DNA from: Streptomyces tanashiensis
GTDB lineage: Bacteria; Actinomycetota; Actinomycetes; Streptomycetales; Streptomycetaceae
Length of the DNA stretch: 64,000 nucleotides
Assembly (NCBI RefSeq): GCF_014648895.1
Contig: NZ_BMRZ01000006.1
Span: forward strand, 248,001-312,000
Direction: 5' to 3'
Shown: positions 9,954 to 50,464 of the stretch, piece by piece
How positions within the stretch are numbered: position 1 is the first letter of the stretch
Layout of the letters: each line of letters begins with the position of its first letter
Position numbers and translations under genes: made by a program
The notes under the pieces: generated by a model
Database searches by the model: none
What the model was told of the DNA's origin: nothing
What the model saw: only the letters and a program-made list of their open reading frames with translations

Positions 9954-11069
9954 CTAGCCGCCGAGCTCCTGGTGGCGGGCGGTCAGCCGCGCCGTACCGG
10001 CCTCCGTGAGGGAGCCGAAGAGACGGAGGCGGGAGATGCCGCCGTCCGGGTAGATGTCGATCCGGACGCGGGAGCCGACCGCCGGGGTGTCGAGCACGAA
10101 CCGGTGGTTGGTGTCGGGCTGGAGGCGGGTCCGGGGCAGGATCTCGGTCCACTCCTCCGAGCCCTCGGCCGCGACGGAGAGGGCGACCCAGCCCGCGCTG
10201 TTGCCCTTGAGGTAGGCGGTGTCGATCTCGACGGCGCGGATCTCGGACTCGGCGACCAGGCCGTAGCGGATCCAGTCGTTGCCCTTGTCGCGGCGGCGGC
10301 GGGTCTCCCAGCCGTCGTCCATCTTGCGGGAGCGGCCCGGCTGGATGGTGTTGGTGGCCGGGGAGTAGAAGCGGTCGGAGGCGTCCTCGACCTGGCCGCC
10401 GTTCTCCAGGGCCGCGAGGTCGAAGGTGCCGAGGACGCCGAGCCACGCCGGGTCCGGGGCGACCTCGCCGTAGACGCGGAGGCGGGCGATGCCGCCGTCC
10501 GGGTGCTGGTTGACGCGCAGGTGGGTGAAGCGCTGCTCGACGTCGACGGCGAAGCCGTTGGCGGCGTGGCCGCCGACCGCGGTGCGCGGGACGAGCGTCG
10601 TCCACTTCACGTCGTCGGCGAGGAGCTCCTCGGGCGAGGGCGAGCCGGCCACGGAGGTCGCCTCGACGGAGACGGCCTGCGGGTAGTTGCCGCGGAAGTG
10701 GGCGGTGTCGAGGACGATGCCGCGGACGACGCCGGGCGCGCCGAGGCGTACGAGGGCCCAGTCGTGGTCGTCCTCGGTGGGGTGCGGCTGCTGGGCCGAG
10801 ACGCCGCGGCGGCGGCGGGTCTCCCAGCCGTCCATGATCTTGCCCTTGTGGCCGAAGTGCTCGGGGTCGAACTCGGCGGCCTCGGGCTTCAGCAGGTTCT
10901 CGCGCTCGGCGAAGAACTCGTCGTTGGCCGCGATGACGCCGGCGCCCAGACGCCGGTCCGCGAGGTCCGCGTACTGGGTGAAGGGGAAGTCGGCCGTCCG
11001 GTAGTCGGCGTACGGGTCGCCGCCGCCGTAGGGGCTGGCGTCACCGGTGAAGCTGGGTATGGACGACAC
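9954..11069 (-). CDS. alc: Allantoicase
   Basis: The 371-aa enzyme hydrolyses allantoate to ureidoglycolate and urea. It contains the two tandem allantoicase repeats: GKIMDGWETRRRRG and RKMDDGWETRRRRD mark equivalent positions in repeats one and two, each followed by a jelly-roll-like domain ending in LRVNQHPDGGIARLRVYG and RIDIYPDGGISRLRLFG. The start is the GTG of VSSIPSFTG at 11069, one base after the allantoinase TGA, which indicates tight coupling. It is the second gene of the allantoinase-allantoicase operon controlled from 12406-12742. Confidence 0.96.
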   Translation of the reverse strand: MSSIPSFTGDASPYGGGDPYADYRTADFPFTQYADLADRRLGAGVIAANDEFFAERENLLKPEAAEFDPEHFGHKGKIMDGWETRRRRGVSAQQPHPTEDDHDWALVRLGAPGVVRGIVLDTAHFRGNYPQAVSVEATSVAGSPSPEELLADDVKWTTLVPRTAVGGHAANGFAVDVEQRFTHLRVNQHPDGGIARLRVYGEVAPDPAWLGVLGTFDLAALENGGQVEDASDRFYSPATNTIQPGRSRKMDDGWETRRRRDKGNDWIRYGLVAESEIRAVEIDTAYLKGNSAGWVALSVAAEGSEEWTEILPRTRLQPDTNHRFVLDTPAVGSRVRIDIYPDGGISRLRLFGSLTEAGTARLTARHQELGG

Positions 11070-11070
11070 G

Positions 11071-12405
11071 TCAGTTGTTCCTTTCGAGGAGGCGGCCGGA
11101 GGGCTCGGCGAGGGTGCCGTGGTCGGCGATCCGCTCGCCGCGCAGCCAGGTGGAGGTGACGACGCCGCTGAGGGTCCTGCCCGCGTAGGCGGTGATCCGG
11201 TTGCGGTGCTGGAGCTCGGCCGGGTCGACGGTGAACGTGGCGTCGGGGGCCAGGACGGCGAAGTCGGCGTCCCGGCCGGCCTCGATCGCACCCTTGCGGG
11301 TGAGTCCGGCCAGCCGCGCCGGGCCCTCGGACATCCAGCGGACCACGTCCTCCAGGGTGTGGCCGCGGCGGCGGGCCTCGGTCCAGATCGCGGGCAGCCC
11401 CAGCTGCAGCGAGGAGATCCCGCCCCACGCGGAGGCGAAGTCCGGGGTCTTCAGATCGGCCGTGGACGGCGAGTGGTCGGAGACGATGCAGTCGATCGTG
11501 CCGTCCGCAAGGCCCTGCCACAGCGCGTCCTGGTTGACCGCCTCACGGATCGGCGGACAGCACTTGAACTCCGTCGCGCCGTCCGGGATCTCCTCCGCGG
11601 TGAGCGTGAGGAAGTGCGGACACGACTCCACCGTGATCTTGACCCCCTCGGCCCTGGCCGCCGCGATCGGCGCCAGCGCGTCCGAGGACGACAGGTGCAG
11701 GACGTGGACGCGGGCGTCCAGCCGGCGGGCCTGGTTGATCAGGTTCTCGATCGCCGTGTTCTCCGCGTCCCGGGGACGCGAGGCCAGGAAGTCGGCATAC
11801 GCGCCGCCCGACCGCTGCGGCGCCGCCGCCAGATGATGCGGGTCCTCGGCGTGCACGATCATCAGACCGCCGAAGCCGGAGATCTCCGCCAGCGAGGTCG
11901 CCAGCTGCTCCTGGTCCAGCTCCGGGAACTCCTCCACGCCCGAGGGCGACAGGAAGCACTTGAAACCGAAGACACCGGCGTCGTGCAGGGGACGCAGGTC
12001 CTTGACGTTGTCCGGCAGCGCGCCGCCCCAGAAACCGACGTCGACGTGCGCCTTGCTCCGCGCCACCTCCTGCTTGACCCGCAGGTTGTCCACGGTGGTG
12101 GTCGGCGGCAGCGAGTTCAGCGGCATGTCGAGCAGGGTGGTGATGCCACCGGCGGCCGCCGCGCGGGTGGCCGTCCAGAAGCCCTCCCACTCCGTCCGGC
12201 CCGGATCGTTCACATGCACGTGCGTGTCGACCAGACCGGGCAGGACCACGTCGTCACCGACGTCCTCCAGCCGGGCACCGGCCGGCACCTCCGCGTCGTA
12301 CGCCAGCACGGCCGCGATCGTCCCACCGGAGACGGCGATCGACGCCGGGCGCGTCCCCTCGGGGGTGATGACACGCGTCGAACGCAGGACCAGGTTGACG
12401 TCCAC
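11071..12405 (-). CDS. allB: Allantoinase (cyclic amidohydrolase)
   Basis: The 444-aa zinc amidohydrolase opens allantoin to allantoate. It shows the metal-binding [10 protein letters not shown], the carbamylated-lysine segment GFKCFLS, histidine motifs IVHAEDP and [10 protein letters not shown], and the aspartate of IVSDHSPS, all in family order. The GTG at 12405 ([12 protein letters not shown]) is preceded by AGGGG; longer frames would enter the regulatory region. It heads a two-gene operon with allantoicase and is divergent from the IclR repressor. Both element classes described in the regulatory features (TTCAAC-N5-GTTGAA and the 15-bp pair) lie upstream. Confidence 0.96.
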
Positions 12406-12447: not shown

Positions 12448-12464
12448 TTCAACGAACTGTTGAA
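12448..12464 (-). promoter_or_regulatory. TTCAAC-N5-GTTGAA element of the allantoinase promoter
   Basis: TTCAACGAACTGTTGAA is a perfect six-base inverted repeat. Read toward allantoinase it is TTTTCAACAGTTCGTTGAAT, resembling the elements in front of the uricase operon and catalase. Its TTGAAT could act as a -35 box about 43-50 bp before the GTG start. A good -10 is not evident. Confidence 0.55.
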
Positions 12465-12543: not shown

Positions 12544-12579
12544 TTCCACAAAGTGGAATGGAAATTCCGTACAGTAGAA
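12544..12579. promoter_or_regulatory. Tandem AllR-type operators upstream of allantoinase/allR
   Basis: TTCCACAAAGTGGAA (12544-12558) is a perfect six-base palindrome. A second, weaker match TTCCGTACAGTAGAA begins at 12565, exactly 21 bp after the first begins. The same paired arrangement occurs upstream of malate synthase, hydroxypyruvate isomerase and glyoxylate carboligase. Two helical turns of spacing fit an IclR-family repressor binding as a dimer of dimers. The divergent IclR gene is the obvious ligand. Confidence 0.75.
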
Positions 12580-12742: not shown

Positions 12743-13549
12743 GTGCCGACGTCCAGCGCCAGCACCACCGACGCCGCCAAGCCCGCCGCGAGCGGAGGCG
12801 TCCAGTCCCTCGAGCGCGCCTTCGACCTCCTGGAGCGGATGGCCGACGCCGGGGGCGAGGTCGGGCTGAGCGAGCTCTCCGCCAGCAGCGGACTCCCGCT
12901 CCCCACCATCCACCGCCTCATGCGCACCCTCGTGGCCTGCGGCTACGTGCGCCAGCAGCCCAACCGGCGGTACGCGCTCGGCCCCCGGCTCATCCGGCTC
13001 GGCGAGTCCGCCTCCCGCCTCCTCGGCACTTGGGCCCGCCCCTACCTGGCGCGCCTCGTCGAGGAGACCGGCGAGACGGCGAACATGGCGCTGCTCGACG
13101 GGGACGAGATCGTGTACGTCGCGCAGGTGCCGTCCAAGCACTCGATGCGCATGTTCACCGAGGTCGGCCGCCGGGTCCTGCCCCACTCCACCGGCGTCGG
13201 CAAGGCGCTCCTCGCGCACACGCCGGCGGAGGAGGTACGGGCGCTGCTCGCCCGCACCGGCATGCCGGCCGCGACCGAGAAGACCATCACCACGCCGGAC
13301 GGCTTCCTCGACGCGCTCGTCGCGGTCCGCGAGACCGGGTACGCGGTCGACGACAACGAGCAGGAGATAGGAGTCCGCTGCCTCGCGGTCTCCGTACCGG
13401 ACTCCCCCACGGCGGCGGCCATCTCCATCTCGGGCCCGGCGGGCCGGGTCACCGAGGCGGCCACGGAGAAGATCGTCCCGATCCTCCAGGAAGTCGCCCG
13501 CGAACTGTCGGCGGCCCTCGCGAACACCACGGGCAACGGCCAGGGCTGA
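12743..13549 (+). CDS. allR: IclR-family repressor of the allantoin/glyoxylate pathway (AllR-like)
   Basis: The 268-aa regulator has an N-terminal IclR winged helix ([17 protein letters not shown], recognition helix around [11 protein letters not shown]) and a C-terminal effector domain with GKALLAH and the cysteine of [10 protein letters not shown]. In Streptomyces coelicolor the AllR protein, encoded beside allantoinase, represses allantoin-pathway genes; position and sequence type agree. The GTG at 12743 is preceded by GAAAGGA at a normal distance; an upstream ATG at 12713 would overlap that site. Glyoxylate or an allantoin-derived ligand would relieve repression, by analogy with E. coli AllR. 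Its probable operators are the 15-bp pairs at four promoters in this window. Confidence 0.9.
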
Positions 13550-25932: not shown

Positions 25933-25981
25933 ACGGGCTGGCACCGAGCGCCATGTTCTGTCGATCCGGAGAATCTCGACA

Positions 25982-26034
25982 TCAACAAACCATTGAACTT
26001 CCACCATGAGGAAACTAGTATCCACTGTTCAGAA
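25982..26034 (+). promoter_or_regulatory. Malate synthase promoter with paired AllR-type operators
   Basis: A good vegetative promoter is visible: TTGAAC (25993-25998), 17-bp spacer, TAGTAT (26016-26021). TTCCACCATGAGGAA (25999-26013) fills the spacer, and a second match ATCCACTGTTCAGAA begins at 26020, exactly 21 bp after the first. The preceding ATCAACAAACCATTGAAC overlaps the -35 and resembles the TTTTCAACA-type element of the uricase and catalase promoters. A repressor bound here would exclude RNA polymerase. Confidence 0.75.
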
Positions 26035-26158: not shown

Positions 26159-27790
26159 ATGTCCGCACCAGCGCCGTCCCCCCTGGCCGTCGTCGATGCC
26201 GAGCCCCTCCCGCGTCAGGAGGAGGTGCTCACCGAGGCCGCCCTGGCCTTCGTCGCCGAACTGCACCGGCGGTTCACCCCGCGCCGGGACGAGCTCCTCG
26301 CCCGCCGAGCGGAGCGTCGCGCCGAGATCGCCCGTACGTCCACCCTGGACTTCCTTCCGGAGACCGCCGCGATCCGCGCCGACGACTCCTGGAAGGTCGC
26401 GCCGGCCCCGGCGGCCCTGAACGACCGCCGTGTCGAGATCACCGGCCCGACCGACCGCAAGATGACGATCAACGCCCTCAACTCCGGCGCGAAGGTCTGG
26501 CTCGCCGACTTCGAGGACGCCTCGGCGCCGACCTGGGAGAACGTCGTCCTCGGCCAGGTCAACCTGATCGACGCCTACACCCGGAAGATCGACTTCACGG
26601 ACCCGAGGTCGGGCAAGTCGTACGCGCTCAAGCCGGCCGGTGAGCTCGCCACCGTCGTCATGCGGCCGCGCGGCTGGCACCTGGAGGAGCGTCACCTCAC
26701 CTTCGACGGACGGCCGGTGCCCGGCGCGCTCGTCGACTTCGGCCTGTACTTCTTCCACAACGCCCAGCGTCTGATCGACCTCGGCAAGGGCCCGTACTTC
26801 TACCTCCCGAAGACGGAGTCGCACCTGGAGGCCCGCCTCTGGAACGACATCTTCGTCTTCGCGCAGGACTACGTCGGCATCCCGCAGGGCACCGTCCGCG
26901 CCACGGTCCTCATCGAGACCATCACGGCCGCGTACGAGATGGAGGAGATCCTCTACGAGCTCCGCGACCACGCCGCCGGCCTGAACGCGGGCCGCTGGGA
27001 CTACCTCTTCTCCATCGTCAAGAACTTCCGTGACGGCGGGGCCAAGTTCGTCCTTCCGGACCGCAACGCGGTCACGATGACCGCCCCGTTCATGCGCGCG
27101 TACACCGAACTCCTCGTGCGCACCTGCCACAAGCGCGGCGCGCACGCGATCGGCGGCATGGCGGCGTTCATCCCGTCCCGCAAGGACGCCGAGGTCAACA
27201 AGGTCGCATTCGAGAAGGTCAAGGCCGACAAGGACCGCGAGGCCGGCGACGGCTTCGACGGCTCCTGGGTCGCCCACCCCGACCTGGTCCCGATCGCGAT
27301 GGCCTCCTTCGACGCGGTCCTCGGCGACAGGCCGAACCAGAAGGACCGTCTCCGCGAGGACGTCTCCGTCGCGCCCGGCGACCTCATCGCCATCGACTCG
27401 CTCGACGCCAAGCCCACCTACGGCGGCCTCGTCAGCGCCGTCCAGGTCGGCATCCGCTACATCGAGGCGTGGCTGCGCGGCCTCGGCGCCGTCGCCATCT
27501 TCAACCTGATGGAGGACGCGGCCACCGCCGAGATCTCCCGCTCCCAGATCTGGCAGTGGATCAACGCGGGTGTCGAGTTCGAGCACGCCGGGAAGACCGT
27601 GACCGCCACCCCCGAGCTCGCCCGCAAGGTCGCCGCCGAGGAGCTGGCCGCGATCCGCGCCGAGATCGGCGAGGAGGCCTTCGCGGCCGGCAGGTGGCAG
27701 CAGGCCCACGACCTGCTCCTGCACGTCTCCCTCGACGCGGACTACGCGGACTTCCTGACCCTTCCCGCGTACGAGCAGCTGGTCGGCTGA
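26159..27790 (+). CDS. aceB: Malate synthase A
   Basis: The 543-aa enzyme condenses glyoxylate with acetyl-CoA to give malate. It has the MS-A order: SLNSGAKVW-like [20 protein letters not shown], the glyoxylate/Mg arginine in [34 protein letters not shown], and the catalytic aspartate region [19 protein letters not shown]. The ATG at 26159 follows GAAGGAAG. Length is normal for the A isoform (about 530-540). No isocitrate lyase gene is near. The promoter carries AllR-type operators, so this copy probably serves glyoxylate from allantoin rather than only the glyoxylate shunt. Confidence 0.97.
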
Positions 27791-39663: not shown

Positions 39664-40587
39664 TTAGAGGTTGGTCATGTCGACCGGGATCAGCGCCGTG
39701 GCTCCGTCGCGGAGGACGGTGGCCTCGATGAGGCCGTACATGCGGTCGGCGGCGTAGTAGACCTCGTTGTCGTTCTTCAGGCCGAAGGGCTCGAGGTCCA
39801 CCAGGAAGTGGTGCTTGTTCGGGAGCGAGAAGCGGACTTCGTCGATCTCCGAGCGGTGGTTGATGATGCGCGTGGCCATCTGGTACAGCGTCTGCTGGAG
39901 GGAGTACGAGTACGTCTCCGAGAAGGCCTCGAGCATGTGCTTCCGGGTCTGCTCGTAGGACCGCTCCCAGTTGGGCATGCGCTGGTCGTCGTCGGTCCAG
40001 TTGAACCGCCAGCGGGCGGACACCTGGGTCGCCAGGATGCGGTCGTACGCCTCCTGGAGGGTGGTGTACTGGTCCTTGATGTAGCCCCAGAACTCCGAGT
40101 TGGTGGAGTTCATGACGACGAGGTCCTTGAGGCCGGAGATGACCTCCCACTTCTCGCCGTCGTAGGTGATCTGGGTGACGCGGGTCTCCTGGCCCTTGCG
40201 GGCGAAGGAGTGGTTCACCTCGTCGGAGCCGATGAACTTGGAGTTGGCGTCGGAGGAGGCGATGCGCTCCCAGGCGTACTCCTCGATCCGGATGCGCGCC
40301 CTCTTGATCGGCTCCTGGCTCGTCACGAAGTGGCGGGCGAGGTGGATGCCGAACTGCTCGGCGGACTCGATGCCGTGCTCCTTGGCGAACGCGAAGATGG
40401 TGTTCTTCGTCGTGTCGGTGGGGAGGCAGTGGGCGTTGGAGCCGGTGAGGTGGACGTCGTCGAGGTCGCCGGAGAGGGCGACGGAGACGTTCAGGTCCTT
40501 GATGTGGTGGGTGGCGCCGTCCCGCGTGATCTTGACGACGCGGTTCTCTGCTTTGCCGTACTGGTTCTGGCCGAGAATCGTGGGCAT
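39664..40587 (-). CDS. uox: Urate oxidase (uricase)
   Basis: The 307-aa cofactor-free enzyme oxidises urate to 5-hydroxyisourate with release of H2O2. Two T-fold halves are visible: MPTILGQNQYGKAENRVVKI with the catalytic lysine region, the TDTTKNTIFAFAKEHG segment with the catalytic Thr, and LVVMNSTNSEFWG with the Phe/Gln-type substrate region. The ATG at 40587 is five bases after the HIU hydrolase TAG. It is the third gene of the OHCU decarboxylase-HIU hydrolase-uricase operon. H2O2 production explains a co-regulated catalase nearby. Confidence 0.96.
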   Translation of the reverse strand: MPTILGQNQYGKAENRVVKITRDGATHHIKDLNVSVALSGDLDDVHLTGSNAHCLPTDTTKNTIFAFAKEHGIESAEQFGIHLARHFVTSQEPIKRARIRIEEYAWERIASSDANSKFIGSDEVNHSFARKGQETRVTQITYDGEKWEVISGLKDLVVMNSTNSEFWGYIKDQYTTLQEAYDRILATQVSARWRFNWTDDDQRMPNWERSYEQTRKHMLEAFSETYSYSLQQTLYQMATRIINHRSEIDEVRFSLPNKHHFLVDLEPFGLKNDNEVYYAADRMYGLIEATVLRDGATALIPVDMTNL

Positions 40588-40592
40588 GTCTG

Positions 40593-40982
40593 CTAGCTCC
40601 CTCGGTAAACGGAGTAGCCGAACGGGTTGAGCAGCAGCGGTACGTGGTAGTGCTCGCCCGGCTTGACGGCGAACGTGATCGCCACCTCCGGGAAGAACGC
40701 ACCGCTGTCCCTTACGCGGGGGGCGTCCTGCTGCGCCTCGGCTTGCTTCTTGGCGAAGTACGTCTCGGTCTCGAAGTCGAGACGCACGTGGGTGGTTTCT
40801 TCCGGCAGCGCCGGCAGGTCCTTGCAGCGCCCGTCCGCGTCGGTGGCGGAGCCGCCGAGCGTGACCCACTCCGCGTCGGAGCCGCTGCGGGCCGCGAGCG
40901 TGATGGCCACGCCCTCGGCCGGCCGGCCGATGCTGGTGTCCAGGATGTGTGTGGACACCGAGGCGGTGGTGTCGGTGCTCAT
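40593..40982 (-). CDS. hiuH: 5-Hydroxyisourate hydrolase (transthyretin-like)
   Basis: The 129-aa protein has STHILDTSIGRPAEGVAITL at the N-terminus (catalytic His in THILD), the conserved Arg in HVRLDFETETYF, and the hallmark C-terminus HVPLLLNPFGYSVYRGS. The YRGS tetrapeptide distinguishes true HIU hydrolases from transthyretin. It hydrolyses 5-hydroxyisourate to OHCU. Its ATG overlaps the stop of OHCU decarboxylase as ATGA and uricase follows directly, so the three enzymes are made together. Confidence 0.97.
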   Translation of the reverse strand: MSTDTTASVSTHILDTSIGRPAEGVAITLAARSGSDAEWVTLGGSATDADGRCKDLPALPEETTHVRLDFETETYFAKKQAEAQQDAPRVRDSGAFFPEVAITFAVKPGEHYHVPLLLNPFGYSVYRGS

Positions 40983-41512
40983 CGGGAGCTCTCTTCCTCG
41001 GGGGTCTCGGGAGTCTCCACGAGACGGGTCAGCCGGATGCGGTTGATCTTGCCCAGTTCGGTGCGGACGATCTCCCGCTCCCGCTCGGGCGAGTTCGAGA
41101 TCCGCTCCCGGACCGCGTCGCGCATCTGCTCGCCGGTCCTGCCGGTGGCGCAGATGAGGAAGACATGACCGAACTTGTCCTGGTAGGCCAGGTTGAGTTC
41201 GAGCATCTCGGCCTTGAGCTCCGCGGAGGCGCCGGCCATCCCGCTCTGTTCGCGGGAGGAGGTCGGGTCCCCGGCCTTCGGACGACCGATCGGCGGGTGC
41301 CCCGCCATCGCCTCGGCCAGGTCCTCGGCGGTCAGCTCGGCCATGGCGGCGTCACTGGCGAGGAAGAGGGCTTCGGCGGTGGTGTACGGGCGCTGGGCGA
41401 GAATCCTGCTCCCCCACGCCGAACTGGAACACACCTCGTGGAGCGTGGCGACGGCCTCGCTGTCCGAGGAGGTGTTGAACCGGGTGAGGCCCGGTGTCGT
41501 ACCTGAAGTCAC
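40979..41512 (-). CDS. uraD: OHCU decarboxylase
   Basis: The 177-aa helical enzyme decarboxylates OHCU to (S)-allantoin. It shows LHEVCSSSAWGSRIL, the catalytic His in AMAGHPPIGRPK, SREQSGM and YQDKFGHVFLICATGRTGEQM, in family order and length. It is the first gene of the uraD-hiuH-uox operon, with a strong candidate promoter at 41561-41601. Downstream steps (allantoinase, allantoicase) lie 29 kb away under a similar upstream element. Confidence 0.96.
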   Translation of the reverse strand: MTSGTTPGLTRFNTSSDSEAVATLHEVCSSSAWGSRILAQRPYTTAEALFLASDAAMAELTAEDLAEAMAGHPPIGRPKAGDPTSSREQSGMAGASAELKAEMLELNLAYQDKFGHVFLICATGRTGEQMRDAVRERISNSPEREREIVRTELGKINRIRLTRLVETPETPEEESSR

Positions 41513-41560: not shown

Positions 41561-41601
41561 TAGCTAACGCCCTCCGCAACACAACGTCAACACTTTGTTG
41601 A
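41561..41601 (-). promoter_or_regulatory. Promoter and TTTTCAACA element of the uricase operon
   Basis: Read in the direction of uraD, the sequence is TTTTCAACAAAGTGTTGACG, containing the perfect repeat TCAACA-N3-TGTTGA (41587-41601). Its TTGACG (41590-41585) is a good -35 box, followed after 18 bp by TAGCTA (41566-41561). The whole 20-base element differs from the catalase element at one position. An unknown regulator bound here would control -35 access. Confidence 0.7.
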
Positions 41602-41667
41602 AAACTCGGCCACACAAAAGCCGTCGTCCCGACATCTGGACGACGGCTCATGGTCAAACATGATCAA

Positions 41668-42054
41668 CTACTCGCTCTTGGTGGCCTTTTCCCTGTTCAG
41701 GGCGGTCTCCCGGTTCAGGTAGTTGTACACGGTGAAACGACTGACACCGAGCGCGCCGGCCACCGTCTCCACTCCATGACGCACGGAGAAGGCACCGCGT
41801 GCCTCCAGGATCCGGACGACCTCCTGCTTCGCCTTGCGGTCCAGTTCGGCCAGCGGCATCCCGTGCCGCCGCTCCATCGCCGCGAGGATGTGGTCCAGGG
41901 AGTCCGAGAGCTGCGGCAGCCGCACGGCCAGCACGTCCTCCCCCTCCCAGGACAGGACGACGTCGTCCCCCTCCGCCTGCGCGGGGACCAGCAGCTCGGC
42001 GCCCATGGCGTCCACCAGCGGCTTCACGGCCGCGACCAAGGGGTGCTCGCTCAC
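41668..42054 (-). CDS. YheO/DauR-like HTH regulator, 128 aa
   Basis: The small protein starts MSEHPLVAAVKPLVDAMGAE and has a C-terminal helix-turn-helix (about residues 68-118, AKQEVVRILEARGAFSVRHG, then VSRFTVYNYLNRE) of the HTH_22/DauR type. The N-terminal PAS-like domain of full-length YheO is reduced to about 60 residues. Its start overlaps the preceding small gene as ATGA, and it lies 155 bp upstream of uraD on the same strand. It is a candidate regulator of the uricase operon and of the TTTTCAACA-type promoters. Confidence 0.82.
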   Translation of the reverse strand: MSEHPLVAAVKPLVDAMGAELLVPAQAEGDDVVLSWEGEDVLAVRLPQLSDSLDHILAAMERRHGMPLAELDRKAKQEVVRILEARGAFSVRHGVETVAGALGVSRFTVYNYLNRETALNREKATKSE

Positions 42055-42305
42055 TTCTCGCCCTCCCCGATCACATTGACCTGGAGCGAGACGCGCGTGG
42101 CGCCGGCCGCGAGCGACCTGCGCAGCAGGGCGTCGACGGCGGTGAGCACCGCGTCGGCGCCGCCTTCCGCCGTGTTGCCGAAGGGGCCGACGTCGACCGC
42201 GTCCAGCTCGGCCGACTGGATGACCTCACGAGCCACGACCGCGTGCGCCGGCGCCTCGTCGAGGTCGAACGGCTCGGTCGTGAACTCCACTCTCAAACGC
42301 TCCAT
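42051..42305 (-). CDS. Small protein resembling thiamine-binding/MTH1187 family, 84 aa
   Basis: MERLRVEFTTEPFDLDEAPA begins a compact alpha/beta protein that ends GATRVSLQVNVIGEGEK. The order of strands and the C-terminal GA-RV strand recall the MTH1187/YkoF-like thiamine-binding fold, but similarity is weak and only visual. It is coupled by ATGA to the HTH gene and may be its ligand-sensing partner, which is inference. Confidence 0.65.
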   Translation of the reverse strand: MERLRVEFTTEPFDLDEAPAHAVVAREVIQSAELDAVDVGPFGNTAEGGADAVLTAVDALLRRSLAAGATRVSLQVNVIGEGEK

Positions 42306-42362: not shown

Positions 42363-42431
42363 TTGACAAGTGTGTCGCCCGCCTTGCAACATTCCGTCAG
42401 ACAGAAACTTACTTCCGCAATACGGAAGGAG
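42363..42431 (+). promoter_or_regulatory. hyi promoter with paired AllR-type operators
   Basis: TTGACA (42363-42368) and CAACAT (42387-42392, 18-bp spacer) form a plausible promoter. TTCCGTCAGACAGAA (42392-42406) and TTCCGCAATACGGAA (42413-42427) begin exactly 21 bp apart, just downstream of the -10. The second is a perfect five-base palindrome and its last bases overlap the ribosome-binding site GGAAGGAG (42424-42431), 11 bases before the ATG. The region also separates hyi from the divergent small-protein/HTH operon. Confidence 0.78.
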
Positions 42432-42442
42432 CGCCGCCCCTC

Positions 42443-43276
42443 ATGGGATACACGGACCAGCGCTTCGATGTGAACCTGTCGATCCTCTTCACGGAACTCC
42501 CGCTCCTGGAGCGCCCCGCGGCCGCCGCCGCGGCGGGCTTCACCGCGGTCGAGCTGTGGTGGCCCTGGATCGACACCGCCACCCCCGAGCAGAGCGAGCT
42601 CGACGCCCTCAAGAAGGCTCTTGAGGACGCCGGCACCCAGCTGGTGGGCCTGAACTTCTACGCCGGGCAGCTCCCCGGCCCGGACCGCGGAGCCCTCTCC
42701 GTGCCCGGGGAAGAGTCGGACCGCTTCCGCGCCAACATCGAGGTGGCCGCAGACTTCGCCGCCTCGGTCGGCTGCAAGGCGCTCAACGCGCTCTACGGCA
42801 ACCGCGTCGAGGGCGTGGACCCGCAGATCCAGGACACCCTCGCCCTGGAGAACCTGGTCCTGGCCGCCCGCGCGGCCGACCGCATCGGCGCGATCCTCCT
42901 CGTCGAGACCCTCAACAAGCCGGAGTCGCCGCTCTACCCGCTGGTGAGCGCCCCCTCCGCGATCGAGGTCGTCGACAAGGTCAACGCCGCCACCGGCCTC
43001 GGCAACGCCAAGTTCCTCCTCGACATCTACCACCTGTCGATGAACGGCGAGGACGTCAGCCAGGTCATCGCGGAGTACGCGGCCAAGACCGGCCACGTCC
43101 AGATCGCGGACAACCCGGGCCGCGGCGCGCCGGGCACCGGCGACCTGCCGCTCGAGCAGCTCCTCGACGAGCTCAGGAAGGCCGGTTACGACGGCTGGGT
43201 CGGCCTGGAGTACAAGGCCGCCGACGCCGCCGCGTCCTTCGCATGGCTGCCGGCCGAGGCCCGCGCCGCCCGCTGA
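42443..43276 (+). CDS. hyi: Hydroxypyruvate isomerase
   Basis: The 277-aa TIM-barrel enzyme of the xylose-isomerase superfamily interconverts hydroxypyruvate and tartronate semialdehyde. It shows RFDVNLSILFTELPLLERPA, GFTAVELWWPW, the metal-binding Glu in LLVETLNKPESPLYPL, LDIYHLSMNGEDV, HVQIADNPGRGAPGTG and WVGLEYKA. The gene lies between AllR-type operators and tartronate semialdehyde reductase, 47 bp upstream of that gene. The product links glyoxylate carboligase output with glycerate. Confidence 0.95.
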   Translation: MGYTDQRFDVNLSILFTELPLLERPAAAAAAGFTAVELWWPWIDTATPEQSELDALKKALEDAGTQLVGLNFYAGQLPGPDRGALSVPGEESDRFRANIEVAADFAASVGCKALNALYGNRVEGVDPQIQDTLALENLVLAARAADRIGAILLVETLNKPESPLYPLVSAPSAIEVVDKVNAATGLGNAKFLLDIYHLSMNGEDVSQVIAEYAAKTGHVQIADNPGRGAPGTGDLPLEQLLDELRKAGYDGWVGLEYKAADAAASFAWLPAEARAAR

Positions 43277-44214: not shown

Positions 44215-44321
44215 CCCTCCGCCCCGTCACCGGGGCCCCTGATTTCCGGTCGGCGGCGGCGCTGACAACCTGTCCTGTCGCGCCCAGGCGTCGTCGCCGA
44301 CCGGAACACCACACTTCATTT

Positions 44322-44362
44322 TCAACAAACTGTTGACGTGCTGTTCGAGCCGAATTTACGCT
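44322..44362 (+). promoter_or_regulatory. Catalase promoter with TTTTCAACA element
   Basis: TCAACAAACTGTTGA (44322-44336) is a perfect six-base palindrome with a three-base centre, in the context TTTTCAACAAACTGTTGACG. TTGACG (44333-44338) and TACGCT (44357-44362, 18-bp spacer) form the likely promoter. The element differs at one of 20 positions from that of the uricase operon, in the same orientation. Confidence 0.72.
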
Positions 44363-44401: not shown

Positions 44402-45859
44402 ATGTCGAAGCGCGTGCTTACGACCGAGTCCGGCGCCCCCGTCGCCGACAACCAGAACTCCGCCACCGCCGGCGTCGGTGGCCCTCTCCTCCTCCAGGAC
44501 CAGCACCTGCTGGAGAAGCTCGCGCGCTTCAACCGTGAGCGGATCCCGGAGCGCGTGGTGCACGCCCGCGGCTCCGGCGCGTACGGCTACTTCGAGGTGA
44601 CCGACGACGTCACCGCGTACACCAAGGCGGACTTCCTCGGTGAGGTCGGCAAGAAGACCGAGACCTTCCTCCGCTTCTCCACCGTGGCCGACTCGCTCGG
44701 CGGCGCGGACGCGGTGCGCGACCCCCGCGGCTTCGCCCTGAAGTTCTACACCGAAGAGGGCAACTACGACCTCGTCGGCAACAACACCCCGGTGTTCTTC
44801 ATCAAGGACCCGATCAAGTTCCCCGACTTCATCCACTCGCAGAAGCGCGACCCCTTCACGGGCAAGCAGGAGCCGGACAACGTCTGGGACTTCTGGGCGC
44901 ACGCCCCCGAGGCCACCCACCAGATCACCTGGCTCATGGGCGACCGCGGCATCCCGGCCTCGTACCGTCACATGAACGGCTACGGCTCGCACACCTACCA
45001 GTGGACCAACGCGGCGGGCGAGGCCTTCTTCGTCAAGTACCACTTCAAGACGAACCAGGGCATCCGCTCCCTCTCCGCCGAGCAGGCCGCCGAGCTCGTC
45101 GGCAAGGACGCCAACTCGCACCAGACCGACCTGCTCCAGGCCATCGAGCGCGGCGTGAACCCCTCGTGGACCCTGTACGTCCAGGTGATGCCGGCCGCCG
45201 AGGCCGCGGACTACCGCTTCAACCCGTTCGACCTCACCAAGGTGTGGCCGCACAGCGACTACCCGCTGCAGCGCGTGGGCCGCCTGGTCCTCGACCGCAA
45301 CCCGGACAACGTCTTCGCCGAGGTCGAGCAGGCCGCGTTCTCCCCGAACAACTTCGTGCCGGGCATCGGTCCCTCGCCGGACAAGATGCTCCAGGGCCGA
45401 CTCTTCGCCTACGCCGACGCCCACCGCTACCGCCTCGGTGTGAACCACACCCAGCTCCCGGTGAACGCCCCCAAGGCGACCGTGGCCGAGAACTACGGCC
45501 GCGACGGCGCCATGGCCACCCGCCAGGGCTCGCGCCACGACAAGAACTACGAGCCCAACTCGTACTCGGGCCCGGCCCAGACCGACGCCGCGCTCTCCGC
45601 GCCGCTCGCGATCCACGGCTGGACCGGCACCCACGAGGCGCCCGCGCACACCAAGGACGACGACTTCTTCCAGGCCGGTGAGCTCTACCGCCTGATGTCC
45701 GAGGACGAGAAGAAGCGCCTGATCGCCAACATCGCCGGCGGTCTCTCCCAGGTGTCCCGCGAGGACGTCATCGAGAAGAACCTCGCGCACTTCGCCGCCG
45801 CCGACGCGGACTACGGCAAGCGCGTCCGCGAGGCCGTCGAGGCCCTGCGCGAGGACTGA
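44402..45859 (+). CDS. katA: Monofunctional haem catalase (small-subunit type)
   Basis: The 485-aa enzyme disproportionates H2O2. It has the active-site His in [35 protein letters not shown], the catalytic Asn in [13 protein letters not shown], and the proximal haem Tyr in [14 protein letters not shown]. The length fits clade 3 small-subunit catalases. The ATG at 44402 follows GGAAGG. It directly follows glxR but has its own promoter with the element shared by the uricase operon, so its probable duty is removal of uricase-derived peroxide. The symbol is by similarity only. Confidence 0.95.
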
Positions 45860-48540: not shown

Positions 48541-50328
<1,788 letters not shown>

Positions 50329-50396: not shown

Positions 50397-50464
50397 TTCC
50401 GTAATGCGGAAATACTGTTCTGCTATACGGAAGCAATGTAGGTCGGGCTGCGGAGAGCCGTCAA
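50397..50464 (-). promoter_or_regulatory. gcl promoter with paired AllR-type operators
   Basis: On the minus strand TTGACG (50464-50459) and TACATT (50440-50435, 18-bp spacer) form a good promoter. Immediately downstream lie two 15-bp sites whose starts are 21 bp apart: TTCTGCTATACGGAA (50418-50432) and TTCCGTAATGCGGAA (50397-50411, plus-strand reading). The second is a perfect five-base palindrome. A repressor would cover the transcript start. Confidence 0.8.

Follow-up and report, generated by a model that had tools for sequence, protein, structure and literature searches.

Introduction

The AllR regulon of Streptomyces coelicolor was reportedly described by Navone et al. in 2015, and AllR is said to be an IclR-family repressor with allantoate and glyoxylate as effectors. 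A title cited in PMC12772271 and PMC11438217 presents S. coelicolor AllR as controlling the genes of the allantoin pathway. According to the passages of PMC11323563 on these regulators, Escherichia coli AllR represses the allantoin and glyoxylate operons and binds to the gcl promoter, with its DNA binding lowered by glyoxylate, and IclR is reported to act as a tetramer.

Here, we analyzed a stretch of 64,000 nucleotides, referred to as the window, from Streptomyces tanashiensis (contig C6 of the 9.0-Mb genome; window G+C content, 73%). The original prediction for this DNA held that the malate synthase promoter combines two operator-like elements, referred to here as A and B, and that malate synthase is an outlet for glyoxylate derived from allantoin. 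Our analyses suggest, with a probability that we place at roughly 0.7, that the malate synthase promoter is a two-input control point, and that this enzyme is the malate synthase of purine breakdown rather than that of the acetate shunt.

Results

Layout of the malate synthase promoter

The malate synthase A gene aceB (26159 to 27790, plus strand) was identified using TIGR01344 (834.5 bits; cut-off, 594.5) as well as the Pfam malate synthase domains, and the closest matches of its product, among the matches listed, were from Streptomyces. Based on its neighborhood, which includes allR, allB, and alc, we take aceB to be probably of the S. coelicolor SCO6243 type. Its predicted promoter consists of a −35 hexamer, TTGAAC (25993 to 25998), and a −10 hexamer, TAGTAT (26016 to 26021), on the plus strand, separated by a 17-bp spacer (25999 to 26015), and the transcript is expected to start near 26028. 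The coordinates, spacing, and overlaps originally given for this promoter were correct, while its description as clean was too strong, because 8 of the 12 bases match the sigma-70 consensus, and a scan for promoter and terminator consensus sequences, which asks for 9 of 12, called nothing here.

Four elements follow each other in the 5′ to 3′ direction, i.e., GAGAATCTCGA, ATCAACAAACCATTGAA (element B), TTCCACCATGAGGAA (element A1), and ATCCACTGTTCAGAA (element A2). Element B (25981 to 25997), which was recognized by its pattern and matrix score and is kept in register in relatives, is a palindrome of the type TTCAAC-N5-GTTGAA, and its right arm is the −35 hexamer; thus, as anticipated, the −35 hexamer is part of a B-like element. 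A1 (25999 to 26013), the probable AllR operator, lies wholly inside the promoter spacer, and A2 (26020 to 26034), a weaker second operator located 21 bp after A1, overlaps the end of the −10 hexamer and the predicted start; both placements had been foreseen. The GAGAATCTCGA block (25969 to 25979) was conserved across 77 distinct aligned aceB promoters and has one match in the window, which is no more than expected by chance. It falls outside the two-input model and may represent a third input. Folding of the aceB leader RNA gave a z score of −0.05 and no evidence of an attenuator.

Conservation of the promoter and expectation by chance

For comparison, we used the window together with the best 80 of at least 574 confirmed malate synthase loci, a set that is biased to close relatives, so that the counts below are of sequences and not of independent events. 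The block comprising A and B was kept in the 80 related loci with few losses; it hardly varies, and the predicted aceB leader ranges from 52 to 204 nt in length. A1 was present in all 81 sequences, with no mismatch to TTCCACNATGAGGAA in 70, one in 9, two in 1, and three in 1. For A2, the left arm ATCC was found in 81/81 and the right arm AGAA in 77/81 sequences, the latter being changed in the other 4. The −35 hexamer read TTGAAC in 64 and TTGAAG in 17 sequences and, thus, conformed to TTGAA[C/G] in all 81, and the −10 hexamer conformed to TANTAT in 79 of 81 (TAGTAT, 41; TACTAT, 32; TAATAT, 5; TATTAT, 1), with TAGCAT in 2. Variation that is almost wholly confined to the third base is the behavior of a −10 element and supports the predicted promoter. 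The conserved −35 hexamer is indistinguishable from the arm of B and could be kept only as such.

To score the aceB sites independently, we built matrices free of aceB, the A matrix from the allR, hyi, and gcl sites and the B matrix from the allB, uraD, and catalase sites. With these, aceB A1 scored 16.7 bits and aceB B scored 20.6 bits. Scores this high were reached 81 times for A and 12 times for B in 12.8 Mb of random sequence with intergenic composition, or ~0.0015 and ~0.0002 times per 230 bp, respectively. The random sequence had no A match within 60 bp of a B match and none with an A2 at +21; this pairing test is weak, because the hits were so few that none would be expected. At 7.6 bits, A2 is above chance at its given position (P of about 4e-4) and too weak to appear among the 14 best A matches in the window.

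These data bear on the possibility that only A is functional and that the B-like sequence in the aceB promoter is simply a conserved −35 region. In most genomes, the aceB copy of B has two mismatches to the symmetric palindrome, and −35 function by itself would keep TTGAA. However, the left arm of B, TCAAC, which is outside any −35 element, was kept in 78 of 81 sequences, B was in register in 79 of 81 (L057 and L100 have a 1-bp deletion), and its score was obtained with a matrix made without it. We, therefore, regard this reading as very unlikely, noting that a conserved sequence is not by itself proof of a B factor, because a neighboring block without a known site is conserved too. The two-input reading is followed below.

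Two gene sets marked by A and B

The seven best matches to A in the window are three pairs, each with a spacing of 21 bp, plus aceB A1. The first pair (TTCCACAAAGTGGAA at 12544 to 12558 and its partner at 12565 to 12579) is upstream of allR (12743 to 13549, plus strand). The second (42392 to 42427, with sites at 42392 to 42406 and 42413 to 42427) precedes the gene for hydroxypyruvate isomerase hyi (42443 to 43276, plus strand), which has an AP_endonuc_2 domain and whose best match, TIGR03234, scored 308.5 bits and, thus, below the cut-off of 353.45. The third (50397 to 50432, with sites at 50418 to 50432 and 50397 to 50411) precedes the glyoxylate carboligase gene gcl (48541 to 50328, minus strand; TIGR01504, 1145 bits; cut-off, 711.2).

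The four best matches to B are at allB, catalase, malate synthase, and uraD, and the next match scored far lower. The allB site (TTCAACGAACTGTTGAA, 12448 to 12464) lies upstream of the allantoinase gene (11071 to 12405, minus strand; TIGR03178, 626.7 bits; cut-off, 357.85), with the allantoicase gene alc (9954 to 11291, minus strand; TIGR02961, 413.4 bits; cut-off, 277.9) close by. The site at 41586 to 41602 precedes the OHCU decarboxylase gene uraD (40979 to 41512, minus strand; PF09349 over cut-off) and the downstream uricase gene (39664 to 40869, minus strand; TIGR03383, 348.9 bits; cut-off, 168.4), and the site at 44321 to 44337 precedes the catalase gene (44402 to 45859, plus strand; PF00199, 635 bits). 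In the uricase, allantoinase, and catalase promoters, as well as the urease promoter of some species, B covers a −35-like TTGA(A/C).

Next, matrices made solely from the malate synthase, allR, and allB sites were applied to the other promoters of 30 Streptomyces genomes, in which we counted 30 uraD, 29 hyi, 28 gcl, 28 ureA, and 23 catalase loci. Left out were catalase rows L259 to L265 (distant catalases or a second copy), ureA rows L144 and L145, and, in the lack of a close ortholog, hyi row L205 and gcl rows L234 and L235; one further genome had no match for catalase and one had none for ureA. The 21-bp A pair was found at 29/29 hyi and 28/28 gcl promoters, where B exceeded its threshold in 0/29 and 0/28 cases, respectively. 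Conversely, B was found at 30/30 uraD, 23/23 catalase, and 11/28 ureA promoters, and A, at a threshold of 15 bits, was found at 0/30, 3/23, and 0/28 of these. Among coding controls, 0 of 138 stretches passed for A or B.

allR and allB were both found in 66 of the 80 loci, and the 65 with complete starts were used together with the window. Upstream of allR, the A1 arms were kept in 66/66 and the A2 arms in 62/66 sequences; at allB, B was present in 66/66 with 0 or 1 mismatch. In the window, A and B at allantoinase are 79 bp apart from edge to edge, in line with the predicted distance of about 80 bp. An A-like site, however, abuts B at allantoinase in 28/66 sequences, so that malate synthase is not the only gene in the genus with a core combining A and B; the claim that malate synthase has the sole shared core stands for the window and fails across the genus.

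As judged from these scans, the A pair with its 21-bp spacing marks the glyoxylate branch (allR, gcl, and hyi), while the upstream branch, comprising uraD-uricase, allantoinase, and catalase along with urease in certain species, is marked by B. Malate synthase has the same 21-bp A pair as the former set, with a weak second site, and fits the latter set by the position of its B right arm on the −35 hexamer, by its register, and by its score. On sequence grounds, malate synthase, thus, carries both elements and is where two nearly disjoint gene sets meet, which departs from the original treatment of A and B as one allantoin control.

Several features of individual promoters are recorded here. 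An A-like site of at least 11 bits begins 40 to 56 bp past the start of B in 8 of the 23 catalase promoters (L249 and L251 to L257), and the catalase promoter in L250 has two tandem copies of B. At the ureA loci (L116 to L143), the presence of B in a minority of relatives suggests that urease was gained by or lost from the gene set within the genus. The urease B site of the S. tanashiensis genome is on contig C7 (L017), and its gene, recognized from the protein sequence and not by a family search, presumably encodes the urease gamma subunit. Several of the B loci followed in the same genome, among the matches listed, are within coding sequence.

The same data can be read as one regulator, AllR, recognizing A and B as a single kind of operator, in which case malate synthase would have three AllR sites. 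Both palindromes can be written as TTCnAC...GTnGAA, and allR lies beside allB, the promoter of which has B in every sequence and, in 28/66, an A-like site directly next to it. Against this, A is 15 bp and B is 17 bp long, the fourth base differs, and the forms are discrete; A is paired at 21 bp, whereas B is usually a single site whose right arm falls on the −35 hexamer; and the two elements avoid each other at hyi, gcl, uraD, and ureA, as counted above. We consider a single regulator unlikely and favor separate factors acting on A and B.

AllR and element A

The allR product scored over the cut-off for HTH_IclR (PF09339, 65.6 bits) and IclR_C (PF01614, 148.9 bits) and, thus, belongs to the IclR family. 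Its best NCBIfam match was the BhcR model NF045644 (203.6 bits; cut-off, 350), and it scored 131.1 bits with the E. coli AllR model NF007548 (cut-off, 406). Because it is under both equivalog cut-offs, it is a family member that may work alike and is not filed as an equivalog of E. coli AllR or BhcR. Element A is probably the operator of AllR, an assignment made because of the autoregulatory position of the A pair, the IclR family membership, and the role described in print for AllR of S. coelicolor. The A pair upstream of allR is placed as would be that of an autoregulated repressor, and two dimers sitting on the same face of the DNA would fit sites that are two helical turns apart.

Elsewhere in the S. 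tanashiensis genome, a perfect A-type palindrome, TTCCACTGAGTGGAA, was found directly upstream of another IclR-family gene (L023:1501-1515; C2:283892-283906), of which it is probably the own operator.

A candidate regulator for element B

A gene for an HTH_22 protein (41668 to 42054, minus strand; PF13309 over cut-off) is adjacent to uraD, on its upstream side, and has a 4-bp overlap with an open reading frame for a thiamine-binding-protein-like product (42051 to 42305, minus strand; PF01910, 22.8 bits, just below the cut-off of 24.9). This pair is beside uraD in 29 of 30 relatives and could possibly represent a split sensor and regulator. HTH_22 was matched in 10 of the 118 genomes sampled from the class, and in 8 of these 10, a strong B site was located within the 3-kb best-match locus; in the remaining two, B was about 13 kb away (G131) or the only HTH_22 match was distant (G085). 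Three weaker second HTH_22 matches (L279 to L281) had no B. The exact B core was found in 8/8 genomes of the genus, with 31 matches versus 2 for the reversed control, and in 32/110 other genomes, with 48 matches versus 17 for the reversed control; 21 of these 32 had a single match. Judged by its neighborhood, the HTH_22 protein is the best candidate for the B factor.

In an S. coelicolor table in PMC6629963, SCO6209, SCO6247, and SCO6248, which are at or presumably behind a B-marked promoter, rise together (3.11, 2.92, and 2.43, respectively). SCO6243 and a catalase are absent from that table and are not named in the main text of PMC6629963, which counts against the two-input model.

The top score among the fetched B loci was that of a B-type palindrome, TTCAACATATTGTTGAA, in the S. 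tanashiensis genome (L009:1501-1517; C11:187060-187076), located just upstream of a cyclophilin-like gene (PF04126); the same core is also present in genome G087. This palindrome was set aside as a member of the same gene set, the adjoining gene being unrelated by annotation.

Distribution of A and B beyond the genus

Among the 118 genomes of the class sample, 55 had a malate synthase match; 30 of these loci were fetched, 22 of which were from outside the genus, several from the same families. With at least 14 of the 16 arm bases required, 10 of the 22 non-genus malate synthase promoters had an A-like pair, at a spacing of 21 bp in 6 and 20 bp in 4; other spacings in the range of 16 to 30 yielded no such pair, and the other 12 promoters had no A pair. 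B reached its threshold in 0 of the 22 (best score, 11.0 bits). Because the A pair recurs at malate synthase outside the genus and no B reaches threshold at these promoters, it looks as though A became paired with malate synthase early and the B input was added later. In G078, which is from another family, B followed by an A pair is located upstream of uricase and next to an HTH_22 relative, and allR and malate synthase are divergently oriented and flank an A site.

Source of the glyoxylate

allR was inside the fetched malate synthase locus in 67 of 80 relatives. Isocitrate lyase is not beside aceB in the window, which, thus, lacks the aceA-aceB arrangement of a glyoxylate shunt operon. The S. 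tanashiensis genome has a second malate synthase gene directly after an isocitrate lyase gene on contig C12, with a gene for a regulator of the ScfRs type (short-chain acyl-CoA regulator type) opposite to this pair. In 10 kb around the second malate synthase gene, no A or B was near threshold (best scores, 8.5 and 11.5 bits, respectively), and this lends support to reading the window gene as an outlet for glyoxylate from allantoin. That part of the original prediction is also supported by the operator pair shared with the glyoxylate branch, the linkage to allR, and the separate copy linked to isocitrate lyase; the accompanying argument that the combined core is unique to this gene was not upheld.

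The window malate synthase could nevertheless serve mainly for growth on acetate or fatty acids via the glyoxylate shunt, with the purine-type sites being secondary. Malate synthase is a classical shunt enzyme, and in the class sample, only one malate synthase was detected at an E value of 1e-150 in 5 of the 8 genus genomes, including that of S. tanashiensis; either some genomes have a single copy, or a second one is missed at this cut-off. Arguing against such a role are the separate isocitrate lyase-malate synthase pair with its ScfRs-type regulator gene in the same genome and the situation in Streptomyces lividans, which, as described in the relevant part of PMC3017869, is without SCO0982/SCO0983 (isocitrate lyase and malate synthase) and keeps the isoform SCO6243. 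This retention fits the expectation for a gene that serves another source of glyoxylate. We, therefore, judge a primary role in the shunt to be highly improbable; the evidence fits window aceB serving to drain glyoxylate from sources other than the acetate shunt. In S. lividans proteomics, as reported in PMC8981147, this malate synthase rises under phosphate limitation, which the two-input model does not predict.

A locus titled Microtetraspora glauca (L039) has a malate synthase (97%) and a promoter nearly identical to those of Streptomyces, and its strain name may be wrong.

Discussion

Our favored reading is that the aceB promoter integrates two inputs. AllR, probably as two dimers side by side, would bind the A1-A2 pair over the spacer, the −10 hexamer, and the start, and would release the promoter when allantoate or glyoxylate accumulates. 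A second factor would bind B and cover the −35 hexamer. With separate factors on A and B, full malate synthase expression would be expected only when the glyoxylate branch and the earlier purine steps are both switched on. The sites and their conservation, the two gene sets, and the additional malate synthase next to isocitrate lyase are what the data show; AllR as the protein on A, repression by both factors, and the logic of both conditions are inferred.

A broader and more tentative proposal, to which we give somewhat less than even odds, is that purine breakdown is under two regulators, i.e., AllR at the glyoxylate end and an undescribed factor, possibly the HTH_22 protein, with malate synthase as a gate for both signals. 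If true, the second factor would run urate oxidation, the opening of allantoin, peroxide removal, and the release of urea. The two-input reading separates two gene sets that would otherwise be lumped under a single allantoin-repressor picture, with sites named base by base, and implies a missing regulator shared by the uricase, allantoinase, and catalase genes and, in certain species, by that for urease. It also offers a reason for the two malate synthases in some Streptomyces, one beside isocitrate lyase and one wired to purine breakdown, and makes the aceB promoter a single place where both inputs can be tested together.

Among known systems, E. coli AllR and IclR resemble the window system in controlling genes for making or using glyoxylate, in palindromes of the TTCC/GGAA type, and in the tetramer described for IclR, as far as the parts of PMC8222616 and PMC11323563 on these proteins go. 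The arms of the E. coli motifs KTTGGAAWAWTWTTCCAAC and TGGAAATNATTTCCA, as given in the motif data of PMC8222616, face the opposite way compared to those of A in the window. BhcR of Paracoccus denitrificans is likewise a glyoxylate-responsive IclR-family protein but differs in activating its own cluster, and the passages on BhcR in PMC11323563 mention no second, B-like element. On the B side, hpxQ-hpxT-hpxO of S. coelicolor (SCO6209 to SCO6211) correspond in kind to the B-marked uraD-uricase genes. PMC4991794, in its section on these genes, associates them with the redox system HbpS-SenS-SenR; its predicted SenR site differs from B, and B was set aside as a SenR site.

The AllR half of the proposed control is known in kind, and searches of open-licence papers by gene, pathway, and regulator name, rather than by motif letters, found no account of the B half in print. 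The closest counterpart is the S. coelicolor AllR regulon, in which the gene for an IclR-family repressor likewise adjoins the allantoinase and allantoicase genes and the same pathway genes are involved. Compared to that regulon, the fixed 21-bp operator pair and its overlap with a second element are what the present analysis found.
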